Assembly: GCA_903856295.1 (NCBI GenBank)
Contig: CAIOBP010000253.1
Location: 1-45,476 of the forward strand
Origin: an uncultured Rhodospirillales bacterium
Lineage (GTDB): Bacteria > Pseudomonadota > Alphaproteobacteria > Azospirillales > Azospirillaceae
DNA: 45,476 nt
Reading direction: 5' to 3'
This document shows, piece after piece, positions 2,909 to 34,085 of this stretch. The notes under the pieces were generated by a model that had not been told where the DNA came from, ran no database searches, and was given only the letters and a program-made list of their open reading frames with translations. Position 1 is the first letter of the stretch; each line of letters opens with the position of its first letter. The position numbers were made by a program, and so were the translations under genes.

Positions 2909-5671
2909 ATGGAGCGCGCCCCCTCTCGCCTGCTGATGCCCGATGCCCCGGCGCTGGTCGCCGGGTCGCGGCATGCCGTCCGGCTCAGTCCCGAGGGCGA
3001 GGTCGAAACCCTGGAATTCGCCGCCGCCGCCCGCCGTCTCGCCGCGGCGCCGACGCTGGTCTGTCATGCTCCGGCGCTGGCGCGGCGGCTCGGCCTCGGT
3101 CACGACCGGCTGAACGTGTTCGATGTTTTGGAGCTGTTCGCCTTCGTCTGTCCGGCCCGCTTCTGCCTGCCGACGCCGCGCGGGCTCGCCGAGTTTCTCG
3201 AGCTGCCGCCGCCGGCCGATCTCGCCGCCGAGGCGCTGACCCTGATCCAGGCCACCGAAGCGCTGCTGCAACGACTGAGCCAGCCGCGTGGCGAGGAGCG
3301 CTCGGATCCCGTGGCCTTGGCCTGGGCGCTCGGCACGGTCGGCTGGCGCTGGGCAACGCCGGTGCTGGCGGCGCTGGGGGCGCCGGGCGGCCCGGCCAAC
3401 AAATTCGCCGAGGCCGGGCTGGGGGTGTGGCGCCGTCTGCCCGAATGGTCGGTGGAAGCGCCCGAGCCGCCGCCGGCCCAGCAGCCGGTGGAACCGGCCG
3501 AGGCGAGGCGGCGGCTGTCCGAACTGGTCCGGACCCGGCGCGGAGCCGGTACCGCCGAGGCCCGGCCCCAGCAATCGGATTATGCCGACGCCCTCTCCGC
3601 CGCCTTCGCGCCCCGGCCCGATGCCGGGGTGCCGAACATGGTGCTGGCCGAGGCCGGCACCGGAGTCGGCAAGACCCTGGGCTATCTCGCTCCGGCCAGC
3701 CTGTGGGCCGAGAAGAACCGGGGCACGGTGTGGATTTCCACCTACACCCGCAACCTTCAGCACCAGATCGACGACGAGCTGGACCGGCTCTATCCCGACC
3801 CCACGGTCAAGGCGCGCAAGGTGGTGCTGCGCAAGGGCCGGGAGAATTACCTCTGCCTGCTGAATTTCGAGGAGGCGGTGCGGATGAGCGGGCTCGACCC
3901 GCGCTATCGCATCGCCCTCGGGCTGGTGGCGCGCTGGATCGCCGCCACCCGCGACGGCGATCTTCAGGGCTCCGACTTTCCCGGCTGGCTGGTCGATGTC
4001 CTCGGGCGCCCCGGCACCCTGGGTTTGGCCGACCGCCGGGGCGAGTGCATCTTTTCCGGCTGCGAGCACTATAATCGTTGCTTTATCGAAAAGAGCGTTC
4101 GCCGCGCTCGACGCGCCGATATCGTCATCGCCAATCACGCCCTGGTGATGATCCAGGCCGCCCAGGGCGGCGGCGACGACAGCTGGCTGCCGACCCGCTA
4201 TGTCTTCGACGAGGGCCATCACGTCTTCGATGCCGCCGACAGCGCCTTTGCCGCGCATCTTACCGGACTCGAAACGAGAGAGCTGCGGCGCTGGCTGCTC
4301 GGCGCCGATGCCGATGGCCGCGGCGGCGGCCGGGCGCGCGGCCTGCGCCGCCGCCTGGAAGACCTGATCGGCGACAGTACCCGCGCCGCCGAATTGATCG
4401 ACGAGGTGCTGCAAGCTTCCCGCGCCCTGCCCGGCGATGGCTGGCGGATGCGGCTGGCCGCCGACACGCCCAACGGCCCGACCGAGCGCTTTCTCCAGGC
4501 CGTGCGCCGACAGGTGCTGGCGCGTTCCGGAGGAAGGGACTCGCCCTATAGTCTCGAAACCGAAACGATGCCTCTGGGCGAAGGCGTTCCCGAGGCGGCG
4601 GCGGCGCTGGCCGAGGCGCTGGGCCGGCTGGCCCGGCCCCTGACCGACCTCGGTACCACCCTGGCCGAACTGCTGGAGGACGAGTCGGCCAATCTCGAAT
4701 CCGAGCAGCGGCGGCGCATCGACTCCCTGGCGCGCGGGCTCGCCCGGCGCACCGACCAGACCGTGCGGCCCTGGCAGGCGATGGTCCAGGCGCTGGGGGC
4801 GCCGACGCCGGTCGGCTTCGTCGATTGGTTCGGGCTGGAGCGCATGGAGGGCCGCGACGTCGATGTCGGCATGTATCGCCATTTCGTCGACCCGACGCTG
4901 CCGCTCAGCCAGGTGGTGCTCGGCACCGCCCACGGCCTGGCCATCACTTCGGCGACCCTGACCGACGGCAGCGGCGACCCCGAGCGCGACTGGCAGGCGG
5001 CGGAGTTGCGCACCGGCTCGGTCCATATGGCGCGGCCGGCGTTGCGGGTGGCGGTGCCCTCGCCCTTCGACTACCCGGCGCACACGCGCGTCCTGGTGGT
5101 CAATGACGTGCGCAAGGACGATCTCGGGCAGGTCGCCGCCGCCTATCGCGAGCTGTTCCTGGCCGCCAAGGGCGGCGCCCTCGGCCTGTTCACCGCCATC
5201 AGCCGCCTCCGCGCCGTGCACGCCCGCATCGCCGCGCCCCTCGACGATGCCGGCCTGCCGCTCTACGCCCAGCATGTCGACGGCCTCGACGTGGCCACCC
5301 TGATCGACATTTTCCGCGGCGAGGACAGCGCCTGTCTGCTCGGCACCGATGCCGTGCGCGACGGCGTCGACGTCCCCGGCCGCTCGCTCCATCTGATCGT
5401 CTTCGACCGCGTGCCCTGGCCCCGCCCCGATATTCTGCACAAGGCCCGGCGCGCCCATTTCGGCGGCAAACGCTACGACGACATGCTGACCCGCCTGCGC
5501 CTGAAGCAAGCCTTCGGCCGCCTGATCCGCCGCGCCGACGACACCGGCGTCTTCGTGCTCCTCGACCCGCTGATGCCCAGCCGGCTCAATGGCGCCTTCC
5601 CGCCGGGGGTGGAGGTCCAGCGGGTCGGGTTGGCCGAAGCGGTACGGATCACGCGGGGGTTTCTGGGGTAG
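2909..5671 (+). CDS. DinG/XPD-like ATP-dependent DNA helicase with [4Fe-4S] cluster
   Basis: A 920-residue superfamily 2 helicase, probably 5'-3', acting on branched or R-loop-containing DNA as DinG and YoaA do. The N-terminal 240 residues are a family-specific extension. Walker A (GTGVGKT) lies near residue 250 and the DEGH Walker B box near 434. Four cysteines between them, at about 316, 380, 385 and 391, match the XPD/DinG iron-sulfur ligand pattern. C-terminal helicase motifs include SATLTDGSGD, GTDAVRDGVDVPG and a QAFGRLIRR motif VI. It starts 55 bp after the GGDEF-EAL gene on the same strand. Its last 23 bases overlap the converging fic remnant. It is longer than E. coli DinG because of the N-terminal extension. 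Confidence 0.9.
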   Translation: MERAPSRLLMPDAPALVAGSRHAVRLSPEGEVETLEFAAAARRLAAAPTLVCHAPALARRLGLGHDRLNVFDVLELFAFVCPARFCLPTPRGLAEFLELPPPADLAAEALTLIQATEALLQRLSQPRGEERSDPVALAWALGTVGWRWATPVLAALGAPGGPANKFAEAGLGVWRRLPEWSVEAPEPPPAQQPVEPAEARRRLSELVRTRRGAGTAEARPQQSDYADALSAAFAPRPDAGVPNMVLAEAGTGVGKTLGYLAPASLWAEKNRGTVWISTYTRNLQHQIDDELDRLYPDPTVKARKVVLRKGRENYLCLLNFEEAVRMSGLDPRYRIALGLVARWIAATRDGDLQGSDFPGWLVDVLGRPGTLGLADRRGECIFSGCEHYNRCFIEKSVRRARRADIVIANHALVMIQAAQGGGDDSWLPTRYVFDEGHHVFDAADSAFAAHLTGLETRELRRWLLGADADGRGGGRARGLRRRLEDLIGDSTRAAELIDEVLQASRALPGDGWRMRLAADTPNGPTERFLQAVRRQVLARSGGRDSPYSLETETMPLGEGVPEAAAALAEALGRLARPLTDLGTTLAELLEDESANLESEQRRRIDSLARGLARRTDQTVRPWQAMVQALGAPTPVGFVDWFGLERMEGRDVDVGMYRHFVDPTLPLSQVVLGTAHGLAITSATLTDGSGDPERDWQAAELRTGSVHMARPALRVAVPSPFDYPAHTRVLVVNDVRKDDLGQVAAAYRELFLAAKGGALGLFTAISRLRAVHARIAAPLDDAGLPLYAQHVDGLDVATLIDIFRGEDSACLLGTDAVRDGVDVPGRSLHLIVFDRVPWPRPDILHKARRAHFGGKRYDDMLTRLRLKQAFGRLIRRADDTGVFVLLDPLMPSRLNGAFPPGVEVQRVGLAEAVRITRGFLG

Positions 5672-29627: not shown

Positions 29628-31280
29628 ATGCCGAGCTTAACCGCGAGCCCTGCCTGGCAGGCCCTGGCCCGTCATCGCCGCGACATGGGGGCTGTCTCCA
29701 CACGGTCGCTGTTCGCGGCGGACCCCGAGCGCTACCGGCGTTTCAGTCTTGAGGCTTGCGGCATCCGGCTCGATTACTCCAAGAACCGCATCACCGCCGA
29801 AACTCTCGAGCTGCTGACCGGCCTTGCCCGCGAGCGCGATCTTGAGGGCCTCCGGGAGCAGCTGTTTTCCGGCAGCGCCATCAACACCACCGAGAACCGG
29901 GCGGTTCTGCACACGGCACTGCGTCAGCGTCACGACGCCCCGGTGACCCCCGACGGCGGCCCCGACGTCATCCCGGAGGTTCGGGCGGTGATGCAGCGGC
30001 TCGGCGCCTTCGTCGATGGTGTGCGCTTCGGCTCGGTCACCGGCCTTTCCGGCCGGCGCTTCAAGGACGTCGTCAACATCGGCATCGGCGGCTCGGATCT
30101 CGGCCCGCTGATGGTGGTCGAGGCGCTGCGGCCTTATCAGCACCCCGACCTGCGGATTCGCTTCGTTTCCAATGTCGACGGCACCCATCTCTACGACACC
30201 CTCGACTGGCTCGATCCCGAAACCACCCTGTTCATCATCACCTCGAAGACCTTCACCACCGAGGAAACCATGACCAACGCCCGCAGCGCGCGGGACTGGT
30301 TCCTTGGCGAGGGCGGCACCGAGGCCGACATCGGCAAGCACTTCATCGCGGTTTCGGCCAACACCGCCGAAGTCGCCAAATTCGGCATCGGCCCCGAGTC
30401 GACCTTCAACTTCTGGGAGTGGGTCGGCGGCCGCTTCAGCCTGTGGTCGGCGGTCGGGCTGCCGATGGCCATGGCCATCGGCATGGAGCGCTTCGACCGT
30501 CTGCTGGCCGGCGCCCACGCCATGGACGAGCATTTCCACACCGCGCCGCTGGAAGCCAACATGCCGGCGCTGCTGGGGCTGCTCGGGGTTTGGGCGATCA
30601 ATTTCTGGGACGCCCCGGCCCACGCCGTGGTGCCCTACGACCAGTATCTCCACCGCCTGCCGGCCTACCTCCAGCAGCTCGACATGGAGTCCAACGGCAA
30701 GTCGGTGGATCGCGACGGCAACCGGGTCGATTACGCCACCGCGCCCGTGATCTTCGGCGAGCCCGGGACCAACGCCCAGCACTCCTTCTTCCAGTTGCTC
30801 CACCAGGGCACGCGGCCGATTCCGGTGGATTTCCTGGCCGCCGCCGAGTCGCACAACCCCTTCGGCGATCATCACCGGCTGCTGCTGGCCAACATGCTGG
30901 CCCAGTCGGAAGCGCTGATGCGCGGCCGGACCGCCGGAGAGGCCCGCGCCGAACTGGAAGCCGCCGGCACCCCGGCCGCGCGCCTGGATGCGCTGCTGCC
31001 CCACAAGGTGTTCGAGGGTAACCGGCCGAGCAACGCCCTGCTCTACAAGAAGCTCGATCCCTACACTCTCGGCGCCCTGATCGCGCTCTACGAGCACAAA
31101 ATCTTCGTCCAGGGCGTGATCTGGAACCTCAATTCCTTCGACCAGTGGGGCGTCGAACTGGGCAAGGCGCTGGCCCGCACCACCGGTGCCGAGTTGGCCG
31201 GCGCTCCGGCCGCCGATCACGACAGTTCGACCGCCGGCCAGTTGCTGTGGCTGCGCGAGCGGATGGCCACCGAATCGTGA
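29628..31280 (+). CDS. pgi: Glucose-6-phosphate isomerase
   Basis: A 550-residue enzyme that interconverts glucose-6-phosphate and fructose-6-phosphate. Signature segments: [12 protein letters not shown] near residue 150, [13 protein letters not shown] near 180, [12 protein letters not shown] near 205 and [20 protein letters not shown] near 380. The catalytic Lys region with [11 protein letters not shown] is near 500. GGGGGAG precedes the ATG. Its TGA overlaps the mutL GTG start (GTGA), giving a pgi-mutL pair, an unusual functional pairing held together by translation coupling. Confidence 0.96.
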
Positions 31281-33142
31281 CCATCCGCCGCCTGCCCGAG
31301 ACCCTGATCAATCAGATCGCCGCCGGTGAAGTGGTCGAGCGGCCAGCGGCGGCGGTCAAGGAACTGGTCGAAAACGCCATCGACGCCGGCGCCACCCGCA
31401 TCGATGTGCTGGTGCGCGACGGCGGCCGGACGGCGATCACCATCATCGACGATGGAAGCGGCATGTCGGCCGCCGATCTGGCTTTGGCGGTCGAGCGCCA
31501 CGCCACCTCGAAACTCCCCGATGGCGATCTCGAAGCGGTGGCCACCCTGGGCTTTCGCGGCGAGGCCCTGCCCTCGATCGGCGCCGTCAGCCGGCTGACC
31601 CTGACCAGCCGTCAGCGCGGCGCCGACAGCGCCTGGGCGATCACCGTCGAGGGCGGCGCGGTCGGCGCGGTGGTTCCGGCCGCTCACCCCCAGGGCACCC
31701 GGGTCGAGGTCCGCGACCTGTTCTATGCCGTGCCGGCCCGGCTGAAATTCCTCAAGGCGCCGCGCACCGAACAGGATCATATCGAGGATGTGCTCCAGCG
31801 CCTCGCCATGGCCCACCCGGAAATCGCCTTCAGCTTCACCGCTGGCGAAGGCGGCAAGGCGGCGCTGCGCTACGCCGCCGGTCAGGGCGATCTGCTCGAT
31901 GTCCGGCTCGGCCGCCTCGCCGCCGTGCTCGGGCGCGATTTCGGCGACAGCGCGGTGGCGGTCAACGGCGCGCGCGACGGCATGAGCCTGACCGGCTTCG
32001 TCGGCCTGCCGACCTTCAACCGCCCGACCAGCCGCGAGCAATATCTCTATGTCAACGGCCGGCCGGTGCGCGACAAGCTGCTGTTCGGCGCCGTGCGCGG
32101 CGCTTATGGCGATTTGATGCCCCGCGACCGCCATCCGGCGCTGGTGCTGTTTCTCGAGCTGCCCGGCTGCGAGGTCGACGTCAATGTCCACCCGGCCAAG
32201 ACCGAGGTGCGCTTTCGCGACGGGCAGTCGGTGCGCGGGCTGATGGTCGGCGCCATCCGGCAGGCGCTGGCCGGGGCCGGCCCCGCCGTCGCGCCCAGTG
32301 TTTCGGGCGCCGCGCTCGATGTCCTCGCGCCCCGGCCCGCGCCCACCCCGTCCACCACGAGCGGCGGCTACCGGCCGAGTTATGGCGGCGGCGGGTATGG
32401 CGGGGGCGGGTATGGGGCGGGCTATAGCCAGCCGCCGCCACCGGTGCCGCGCGGTCTTGCCGAGTCGAGCTTCGCCTGGCAGGCACCGCTGACGCCCGCC
32501 GGGCGGCCGATGACCCCGGAAGCGGACACCGCCCAGCCACCACCCGAGCCCGCCGCCTTCCCGCTCGGGGTCGCGCGGGCGCAGCTGCACAACACCTACA
32601 TCGTCGCCGAGACCGCCGAGGGCGTGGTGCTGGTCGATCAGCACGCCGCCCACGAGCGTCTGGTCTATGAAAAGCTCAAGACCGCCCTGCTCGACGGCGC
32701 GCGCGCCCTGCCCGCCCAGGGCTTGCTGATGCCCGAGGTGGTCGAGGTCGGCGACGGCGCCGCCCGCCGTCTGCTCGCCCGCGCCGATGAGCTGTCCCGG
32801 CTCGGCCTTGGGTTGGAGTCCTTCGGAGTCGGCGCGGTGCTGGTGCGCGAGGTGCCGGCCCTGCTCGGTCAGGCCGATGTCAAAGCCCTGGTGCGCGATC
32901 TCGCCGACCAGCTCGCCGAACTCGACGACGCCCCGGCCCTGCGCGACCGGCTCGACGAGGTCTGCGCCTCCATCGCCTGTCACGGCTCGGTGCGCGCCGG
33001 CCGCGTCCTCTCGGCCGAGGAGATGAACGCCCTGCTGCGCCAGATGGAGCAAATGCCCCACTCCGGCCAATGCAGCCACGGCCGCCCGACCTATGTCGAA
33101 CTCCGCAAAGCCGACCTGGAGCGGCTGTTCGAACGCCGGTGA
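31277..33142 (+). CDS. mutL: DNA mismatch repair protein MutL, endonuclease type
   Basis: A 621-residue protein. The N-terminal GHKL ATPase shows [26 protein letters not shown] and [10 protein letters not shown]. Residues about 340-430 form a Pro/Gly/Tyr-rich linker. The C-terminal domain has the metal-binding endonuclease motif [12 protein letters not shown] (near 453), [10 protein letters not shown] and [11 protein letters not shown]. These define a nicking MutL that does not need MutH. GTG 31277 overlaps the pgi stop and matches the conserved [19 protein letters not shown]-terminus. Confidence 0.96.
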
Positions 33143-33179: not shown

Positions 33180-33208
33180 TTGTTTTTCGGGTCGGATTGA
33201 CCTATAGT
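33180..33208 (+). promoter_or_regulatory. Promoter between mutL and coaE
   Basis: TTGTTT (33180-33185), a 17-bp spacer and TATAGT (33203-33208) form a good sigma-70-type promoter in the 292-bp mutL-coaE gap. Transcription should begin near 33214, at the edge of a strongly structured segment and 220 bp before coaE. Confidence 0.5.
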
Positions 33209-33211
33209 TCG

Positions 33212-33385
33212 AAGGTGGCCGACGGGTGGTGGTACACCCGCCGGCTTACTCCTAGGCCCGGGTTCTGGTCAGGCGGATTTTAAGCCGCCAGCCCCTCCAC
33301 CGGAGCACCAGGAGGAAGGGCATTTTGGGCATGCCTCGTTCTCCTTCTTGACACGGCGGGCGCCTATTCGCCCGCCGTCGTCATT
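33212..33385 (+). ncRNA. Candidate structured small RNA or coaE leader
   Basis: Downstream of the promoter the plus strand can form, in order: a 10-bp hairpin GCCG-A-CGGGTG / CACCCG-C-CGGC (33218-33245), and a three-way junction closed by GCCC/GGGC (33256-33259 with 33318-33321) and CTGGT/ACCAG. The junction arms are GGCGG/CCGCC (33272-33289) and CTCC/GGAG (33295-33305). A 9-bp GC hairpin CGGCGGGCG/CGCCCGCCG follows near 33354-33377. GAAGG (33211) can pair with CCTTC (33343) to close the whole. I do not recognise a known RNA family; 6S RNA or a leader are possibilities. Because the stems are palindromic, the minus strand folds similarly. Confidence 0.35.
33252..33332 (-). CDS. Possible small basic protein (26 aa) antisense to the structured segment
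   Basis: On the minus strand AAGGAG stands 8-9 bp before ATG 33332, followed by a 26-residue frame MPKMPFLLVLRWRGWRLKIR plus a short basic end, TAG at 33252. A strong ribosome binding site and an amphipathic Trp/Arg-rich sequence make it worth recording. The same bases are the core of the candidate RNA on the other strand, so at most one reading may be biologically meaningful. Confidence 0.3.
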   Translation of the reverse strand: MPKMPFLLVLRWRGWRLKIRLTRTRA

Positions 33386-33434
33386 TATAAGTGGGCCAAA
33401 GCCCCCCAGCGATGAATTTCTTCGAGCCCACCGC

Positions 33435-34085
33435 ATGATCATCCTCGGCCTCACCGGCTCCATCGGCATGGGAAAAAGCACCGCCGCCGGCATGATGCGC
33501 CGGTTGGGCGTCCCGGTGCATGACGCCGACCGGGTGGTCCATGGCCTGCTCGGGCGTGGCGGCGCGGCGGTGGCCCGGATCGAGCACCTGTTCGGTCGGG
33601 ATGTCATTCGCGATGGCGCCGTCGACCGGCCCAAGCTCGGCGCCAAGGTCTTCGGCGATCCCGCGGCGCTGAAAAGGCTGGAGGCGATTCTGCATCCGCT
33701 GGTCCGGCGGGCCGAACGGCGCTTTCTCGCCCAGGCGGCGACGCGGCGAACCAGGGTGGCGGCGCTGGACATTCCCCTGCTGTTCGAGACCGGCGGTGAA
33801 CGGCGGGTCGACGTCACCCTGGTGGTGACCGCGCCGGCCTTCATTCAGCGCCTCCGCGTGCTCGCCCGACCGGGAATGAGCGCGGAGAGGCTCGCTTCCA
33901 TCCTCAAGCGCCAGACCCCGGACGCCGAAAAGCGCCGCCGCGCCGATTTCGTCATCCAGACCGGCCTCGGCAAAGCCCCGGCCTTGCGCCGGCTCAAGCG
34001 GATCGTCAAAATCATCCGCGCCCGCCCCGGCCATCACTGGCCGCCTCGTCGCCCCCTGCCCTTCGCCGGAAACCGCCATGCGTGA
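33435..34085 (+). CDS. coaE: Dephospho-CoA kinase
   Basis: A 216-residue kinase for the last step of coenzyme A synthesis (phosphorylation of the 3'-hydroxyl of dephospho-CoA). The P-loop GLTGSIGMGKST is at residues 5-16, followed by HDADRVVH (substrate Asp) near 33 and LDIPLLFETG near 115. ATG 33435 gives the conserved MIILGLTGSIG start. The stop overlaps the dnaQ start by 8 bases, so the two are translated together. This is the alphaproteobacterial coaE-dnaQ pair. Confidence 0.95.
   Translation: MIILGLTGSIGMGKSTAAGMMRRLGVPVHDADRVVHGLLGRGGAAVARIEHLFGRDVIRDGAVDRPKLGAKVFGDPAALKRLEAILHPLVRRAERRFLAQAATRRTRVAALDIPLLFETGGERRVDVTLVVTAPAFIQRLRVLARPGMSAERLASILKRQTPDAEKRRRADFVIQTGLGKAPALRRLKRIVKIIRARPGHHWPPRRPLPFAGNRHA

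Follow-up and report, generated by a model that had tools for sequence, protein, structure and literature searches.

A candidate family of type I toxin–antitoxin loci in Azospirillaceae, encoded on both strands between mutL and coaE

The gap between mutL and coaE in the genome of an uncultured member of the Azospirillaceae contains a two-strand locus that probably belongs to a type I toxin–antitoxin family that is new and acts in the manner of ibs/Sib or aapA/IsoA, a reading to which we assign a probability of about 0.74. The window analyzed is a stretch of 45,476 nucleotides, in which mutL (31274–33142, plus strand; Pfam MutL_C and DNA_mis_repair) and coaE (33435–34085, plus strand; Pfam CoaE) border the locus at 33180–33388. 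The plus strand specifies a structured RNA about 170 nt in length, and the coordinates place a 26-codon ORF of the minus strand entirely within the span of that RNA. The ORF and the RNA are halves of one real, conserved locus. Two of the parts expected of a type I system are found here, namely a peptide ORF under coding constraint (firm for the Trp/Arg-rich peptides, weaker for the Leu-rich peptides alone) and, on sequence evidence, an antisense RNA gene that has its own promoter and fully overlaps the ORF. A first-pass annotation had noted both the small RNA and the ORF and had observed that mutL and coaE account for neither, which agrees with the presence of a separate promoter and terminator; it missed that the RNA is complementary to all of the coding region together with its ribosome-binding site.

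The antisense RNA gene and the peptide gene

The promoter proposed in the first-pass annotation is present on the plus strand at 33180–33208 as TTGTTT (33180–33185) and TATAGT (33203–33208) separated by 17 nt. This assignment comes from direct reading; a strict scan for 9 of 12 consensus positions does not list it. Among 69 thinned homologues, the highest-scoring promoter ahead of the RNA beats mononucleotide shuffles in 68 (mean of 10.3 bits vs 3.25 bits in shuffles), and the start of the -10 box is confined to a single 7-nt range in 64 of the 69. The RNA, which is the proposed antitoxin, extends over 33213–33386 with ends inferred from the -10 box and the terminator. The minimum free energy fold of 33205–33380 is -85.2 kcal/mol (z = -3.3 relative to dinucleotide shuffles, 1 of 200 of which is as good).

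Several elements make up this fold. The 5′ hairpin (33217–33246, plus strand) is where the first-pass annotation placed it, with 11 bp and one mismatch instead of 10 bp. The multibranch junction in the middle of the RNA likewise exists, and its closing stem and three branches make it four-way where a three-way junction had been described. The central long-range stem (33250–33313, pairing 33250–33260 with 33301–33313) contains the complement of the peptide stop codon. The terminal hairpin already noticed (33353–33378) is the hairpin of an intrinsic terminator that was found by a terminator scan and spans 33353–33388 with a weak T-rich tail; T-rich tails follow this hairpin in many copies by direct reading. 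Covariation, one of the checks suggested beforehand, was analyzed using 11 aligned homologues, in which 95.3% of cells pair and both-side changes occur in 16 of 37 pairs, a number attained in 0 of 500 shuffles. For four of the five covariation measures no shuffle out of 500 does as well, and for the fifth 3 of 500 do, with the structure having been predicted from the same 11-sequence alignment, which favours it. Both-side changes are found in 7 of 10 pairs of the 5′ hairpin, 6 of 11 pairs of the terminator hairpin, and 1 of 10 pairs of the central stem (helix 2 of the analysis), in which 93.6% of cells are paired. R1, a covariance model of 11 sequences, matches 33210–33381 with 160.6 bits, the window itself being among the sequences from which R1 was built. 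With a conserved promoter, covarying stems, and a terminator, the plus-strand RNA looks like a gene.

The proposed toxin is the 26-codon ORF MPKMPFLLVLRWRGWRLKIRLTRTRA on the minus strand (33252–33332), for which the Shine–Dalgarno (SD) sequence reported in the first-pass annotation, AAGGAG (33341–33346), is located 8 nt before the ATG. The peptide is rich in Trp and Arg and has a net charge of +8 by hand count. Conservation of this ORF was examined in 159 fetched hits representing part of the R1 matches (L101 and L102, which R1 matches weakly and which lack an ORF of this kind, were omitted), which gave 125 distinct cores once 34 duplicates were collapsed and 69 homologues after thinning. An SD-led ATG ORF of 17–40 codons is found in a 60-nt window at the expected antisense place in 118 of the 125 cores and 62 of the 69 thinned homologues. 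Ten windows placed elsewhere, on one strand or the other, give 0–4 of 69, and shuffles average 1.9 with a maximum of 6. The 118 include one case in which the wrong ATG was taken (L138, with a family-type frame beside it), one ORF cut short (L053), two that are shifted (L095 and L114), and one unlike the others (L099). Several of the seven cores without such an ORF (L117, L167, L054, L064, L068, L078, and L086) have a longer or shorter frame.

Each homologue class seen has a short SD-led ORF opposite the RNA. The peptides are mostly 23–34 aa in length and are either Trp/Arg-rich and cationic or Leu-rich; among the types are M.KMPFFLVLQWRRWRIEIRLIRR, M.KMPFLLVLR.P.WRRRVIHV.V, MEKILTLLILLLQ..KA.LDLLNR, and MRK..TLLWLDL.IWRISIRLLVTRA. 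L008 was omitted from the peptide alignment. Coding constraint was assessed with equal-length ORFs from the 118 homologues, arranged in 48 pairs with each sequence used once. In the minus frame, 124 of 323 changes are synonymous where 95.2 are expected (z = 4.1) and conservative replacements exceed expectation (BLOSUM z = 7.0), while the highest value in the other five frames is z = 1.8 for all 118. For the Trp/Arg and other non-Leu peptides the synonymous and BLOSUM values are z = 4.6 and z = 6.5, and one plus-strand frame in this class reaches z = 2.06. The synonymous test is not significant for the Leu-rich class alone (z = 0.69; BLOSUM z = 2.95) or for Leu-rich pairs with at least 8 differences (z = -0.36; BLOSUM z = 1.92). 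Its conserved place, taken together with coding-type substitutions in the minus frame, indicates that the ORF is a coding gene, most firmly in the Trp/Arg class of the window and less so for the Leu-rich class alone. The mean GRAVY of the non-Leu peptides is 0.19, and known type I toxins are generally less cationic and more hydrophobic than these peptides, a point against the toxin reading.

Predicted folding of the minus-strand RNA and a proposed mechanism

The minus strand is predicted to fold more stably than the plus strand, with -97.6 kcal/mol for 33205–33385 (z = -6.9 vs -3.3). Mean z values across the 69 thinned sequences are -5.98 for the plus strand and -6.91 for the minus strand, both far below shuffles, and the minus strand has the lower value in 57 of the 69. 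Fold and covariation identify a hairpin at the start codon, GGCAU-7 nt-AUGCC (33318–33336), that holds the AUG of the minus strand in its stem. In 48 of 62 homologues the start codon is predicted to lie inside such a 7-nt-loop hairpin paired with codon 4 (shuffles: mean 0.8, maximum 3), and the pair between positions -1 and 11 is C-G in 27 and G-C in 27. The SD window is 72% paired in the predicted minus-strand fold in silico over the 62 homologues. In the window, the predicted start hairpin reaches as far as codon 6, and the SD is largely paired with the 3′ end of the RNA; in homologue L015 the SD pairs with codons 6–8. The start hairpin is only mildly lower in energy than synonymous-codon variants (mean z = -0.83); in 9 of 62 homologues it ranks lower than 95% of the variants. 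Trimming 14 nt from the 3′ end of the minus-strand RNA opens the SD in 27 of 62 homologues and trimming 45 nt does so in 8; a lock between the 5′ and 3′ ends is therefore possible but not general.

Signals for transcription of the minus strand are fainter. A possible -10 box of the peptide mRNA, TATAAA, is located at 33384–33389 (minus strand) with a weak upstream signal and no clear -35 box. The promoter signal upstream of the ORF is weak across homologues as well, at 6.2 bits vs 4.6 bits in shuffles and above shuffles in 45 of 69, and TAAA-type -10 motifs are seen by eye just past the terminator hairpin in many Trp/Arg copies. No minus-strand terminator is listed by the scan of the window or recognizable by eye in the flanks. 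The hairpin at 33217–33246 would also be the last hairpin of the minus-strand RNA, and the plus-strand terminator sequence is probably the 5′ stem-loop of the minus-strand mRNA. In the Azospirillum Trp/Arg orthologues, the 3′ flank of the plus-strand RNA is also syntenically conserved. A palindrome of the CACAC..GTGTG type lies about 40 nt past the plus-strand terminator in L015, L028, L039, and L174, upstream of the presumed peptide promoter, and could be a putative regulator site in these orthologues.

These features suggest a mechanism in which the minus strand, if transcribed, would yield a short membrane-type peptide from a tightly folded mRNA. The start codon would be closed in a hairpin with the peptide's own codons 4–6 and the SD would be paired too, such that a fresh transcript should be poorly translated. 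The opposite strand would supply, from its conserved promoter, a terminated transcript about 170 nt long that is complementary to all of the ORF and to its ribosome-binding site. Pairing of the two RNAs, probably starting between hairpin loops, would block translation of the peptide and expose the sense–antisense duplex to RNase III. A shortage of antisense RNA would then allow the peptide to be made and to act, presumably as a toxin, on the inner membrane. A broader reading, for which we see even odds, is that one RNA chassis carries interchangeable, dissimilar peptide toxins, either cationic and Trp/Arg-rich or helical and Leu-rich, in an Azospirillaceae-specific superfamily, with the terminator doubling as the 5′ stem-loop, the N-terminal codons helping to lock their own ribosome-binding site, and several loci present per Azospirillum genome.

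Distribution of the family and database searches

The locus is multicopy. Its own genome has two clear paralogues on contigs C30 (75% identity) and C56 (84%), both over matched parts, and R1 finds a further, weaker copy on C141. The antisense peptide frame of a C141 copy (L095, 60139–60328) appears shifted, perhaps in a decaying copy, with a similar shift in L114/L048, and some copies in the family carry broken peptide frames. At L043 and L046, two complete copies stand in tandem at a distance of 289 bp, and their peptides differ slightly. A much diverged match in the same genus (L099, genome G002; 33.4 bits) has a 33-aa peptide, MKIKIELITRAKAFLLLLELGVGRFKLTIKAEA, and perhaps represents a further class.

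A DNA search gave a match in 7 of 59 genomes, counting the genome of origin. Within the taxonomic family, R1 has matches in 63 of 82 genomes at E ≤ 0.01 and in 60 of 82 at E ≤ 0.001; a search set to the order yielded genomes of this family only. R2, an RNA model built on the Leu-rich class, matches 51 of the 82 with up to 12 matches per genome, some of which are opposite-strand matches to the same copy; a third model, R3, was set aside as it contained 10 pairs only. Among 240 genomes of the class, R1 matched 5 at E ≤ 0.001, of which 3 are in the family. The class-wide searches (240 and 289 genomes), which scored about 10 candidates per genome and may let distant relatives escape, produced no convincing match beyond the family: the four obtained from elsewhere (L104, L105, L190, and L191) were rejected as they have no SD-led antisense ORF of 17–40 codons.

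A 31-base core pattern was found in 76 stretches among 84,980 species genomes, of which 65 are titled Azospirillum and 11 otherwise. At E ≤ 0.01, 71 of these stretches are R1 matches as well. The other five are from Chloroflexi (L127), Selenomonas (L136), a Rhodospirillales MAG (L175), Comamonas (L177), and an archaeon (L180). The stretch in the Chloroflexi MAG, near 3839–3869, looks like a chance occurrence, yet it has an SD-led antisense ORF containing MPSLLVLIRR. The core pattern had no match in viral contigs. For plasmids, one DNA search gave no match and another gave two plasmid copies, and a protein search with one 24-aa peptide, a query too short to inform, gave no match. The plasmid copies (L186 and L187, obtained with a Leu-rich query) are on pAB510d and on an A. 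oryzae plasmid, both between ftsK and znuB, where the PLSDB gene table, itself incomplete, has no annotated gene.

Sequence-based detection of type I toxin–antitoxin loci is difficult, as toxin and RNA alike are tiny and evolve fast. The Rfam scan that had been proposed as a check matched no known family in the window or in 14 homologous loci, apart from a tRNA elsewhere on one locus, which supports the earlier suggestion of an undescribed small RNA. Nothing convincing appeared in the window in Rfam at E ≤ 10; the best candidate at the relaxed threshold, EcpR1 (Atu_C6) on the minus strand, scored 21.7 bits where the gathering score is 60 and was rejected. A tRNA/tmRNA search found none. Seven exact peptides had no match in NCBIfam or PADLOC, Pfam and PHROGs gave chance-level matches only (best E = 0.051, under the cut-off), and the PDB gave no match. 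In the open literature, which leaves subscription papers mostly outside, titles and abstract openings of the papers listed reveal no report combining Azospirillum with type I toxin–antitoxin systems or with toxin–antitoxin systems and antisense RNA, and the papers listed by a broader search on type I systems contain nothing on Azospirillum. The main text of an Azospirillum sRNA study contains no word beginning with "toxin" (PMC7685610). As none of Rfam, Pfam, NCBIfam, PHROGs, and PADLOC yields a credible match, the family is apparently undescribed. The family is of interest as it is present several times per genome in a genus that promotes plant growth and is absent from the libraries used and, at two places, from the PLSDB table. 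It also prompts one to ask how a single RNA layout carries very different peptides.

Alternative explanations and comparison with known systems

Many short bacterial membrane peptides are regulators and not toxins. It is conceivable, though unlikely, that the peptide here is a non-toxic regulatory or structural membrane peptide controlled by a cis antisense RNA, as the coding and antisense evidence fits this explanation equally well. The multicopy spread, tandem duplication, dissimilar peptides on one layout, broken-frame copies, closed start codon, and fully overlapping antisense RNA are, however, jointly typical of type I loci. Even if non-toxic, the family would be a large one of antisense-controlled micropeptides. 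Far less probable is a trans-acting structured sRNA of the plus strand, with an antisense ORF that merely reflects conservation of the RNA. The strong promoter, terminator, and covarying stems suit such an sRNA, but it would not account for coding-type substitutions in the minus frame, an SD-led ORF kept in place in 62 of 69 homologues vs 0–4 elsewhere, or the better fold of the minus strand. The converse, in which the conserved peptide marks a small ORF gene that alone matters and the plus-strand promoter and RNA are incidental, is more doubtful still given the -10 box held within 7 nt in 64 of 69 homologues, a promoter score far above shuffles, and the T-rich tails read directly after the terminator hairpin in many copies.

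The first-pass annotation had also raised a divergent 6S RNA or a CoA-linked leader, readings that the intergenic position ahead of coaE might invite and that now have almost no probability. Rfam, which includes a 6S model, gave no match at the gathering cut-off, several copies occur per genome, and what is conserved is an antisense ORF with coding function. A CoA-linked leader is unsupported because the terminator precedes coaE (33435) and the homologues adjoin other genes, such as ftsK and znuB, among those whose neighbours were examined. An equally negligible chance attaches to dispersed REP-like hairpins that give no product; the copies are indeed numerous, hairpin-rich, and intergenic, but they keep the promoter, full-length layout, and coding constraint, and the paralogues have diverged to the 75–84% identity given above for the matched parts.

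The closest analogues of the proposed type I locus are ibs/Sib of Escherichia coli and aapA/IsoA. The Sib antitoxins are described as overlapping the entire ORF and ribosome-binding site, and the five copies in MG1655 were first noticed as a 140-nt repeat (PMC4147584). The RNA described here similarly covers a whole tiny ORF and its ribosome-binding site and is multicopy. In contrast to IbsC, a 19-aa peptide (PMC8309996), the peptides here are mostly 23–34 aa and Trp/Arg-rich and cationic or Leu-rich. No ibs/Sib match was obtained in Pfam or Rfam, which include Ibs and Sib models, and the RNA layouts were compared by description.

The aapA/IsoA system is from Helicobacter, a bacterial lineage different from that of the present locus. 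It consists of a 30-aa peptide and a cis-encoded antisense RNA (PMC8309996), and its full-length mRNA is described as inert, with SD-sequestering hairpins and a 5′ terminal stem-loop (PMC6733600). The small peptide and cis antisense RNA are shared, and the SD-closing folds predicted here may be as well. Unlike in aapA/IsoA, the start codon here would be closed by the peptide's early codons around a 7-nt loop, and the long-distance lock is only partly supported. No aapA/IsoA match was found in Pfam, NCBIfam, PADLOC, PHROGs, or Rfam, which may or may not include AapA or IsoA models.

In our judgement the Leu-rich class resembles TisB of E. coli, and tisB/IstR-1 gave no sequence match. IstR-1 is made from a neighbouring gene and not from the strand opposite the ORF, unlike the antisense RNA here, which is encoded opposite the ORF. 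TisB itself is a 29-aa amphiphilic helix with few charges (PMC8309996). The LDR repeats of E. coli encode Ldr, a peptide of 35 aa, and Rdl, an antisense RNA of about 60 nt, within tandemly repeated units (PMC4147584). The ldr/Rdl loci, to which there is no sequence match, share with the locus described here a small peptide paired with an antisense RNA and an occurrence in tandem units.
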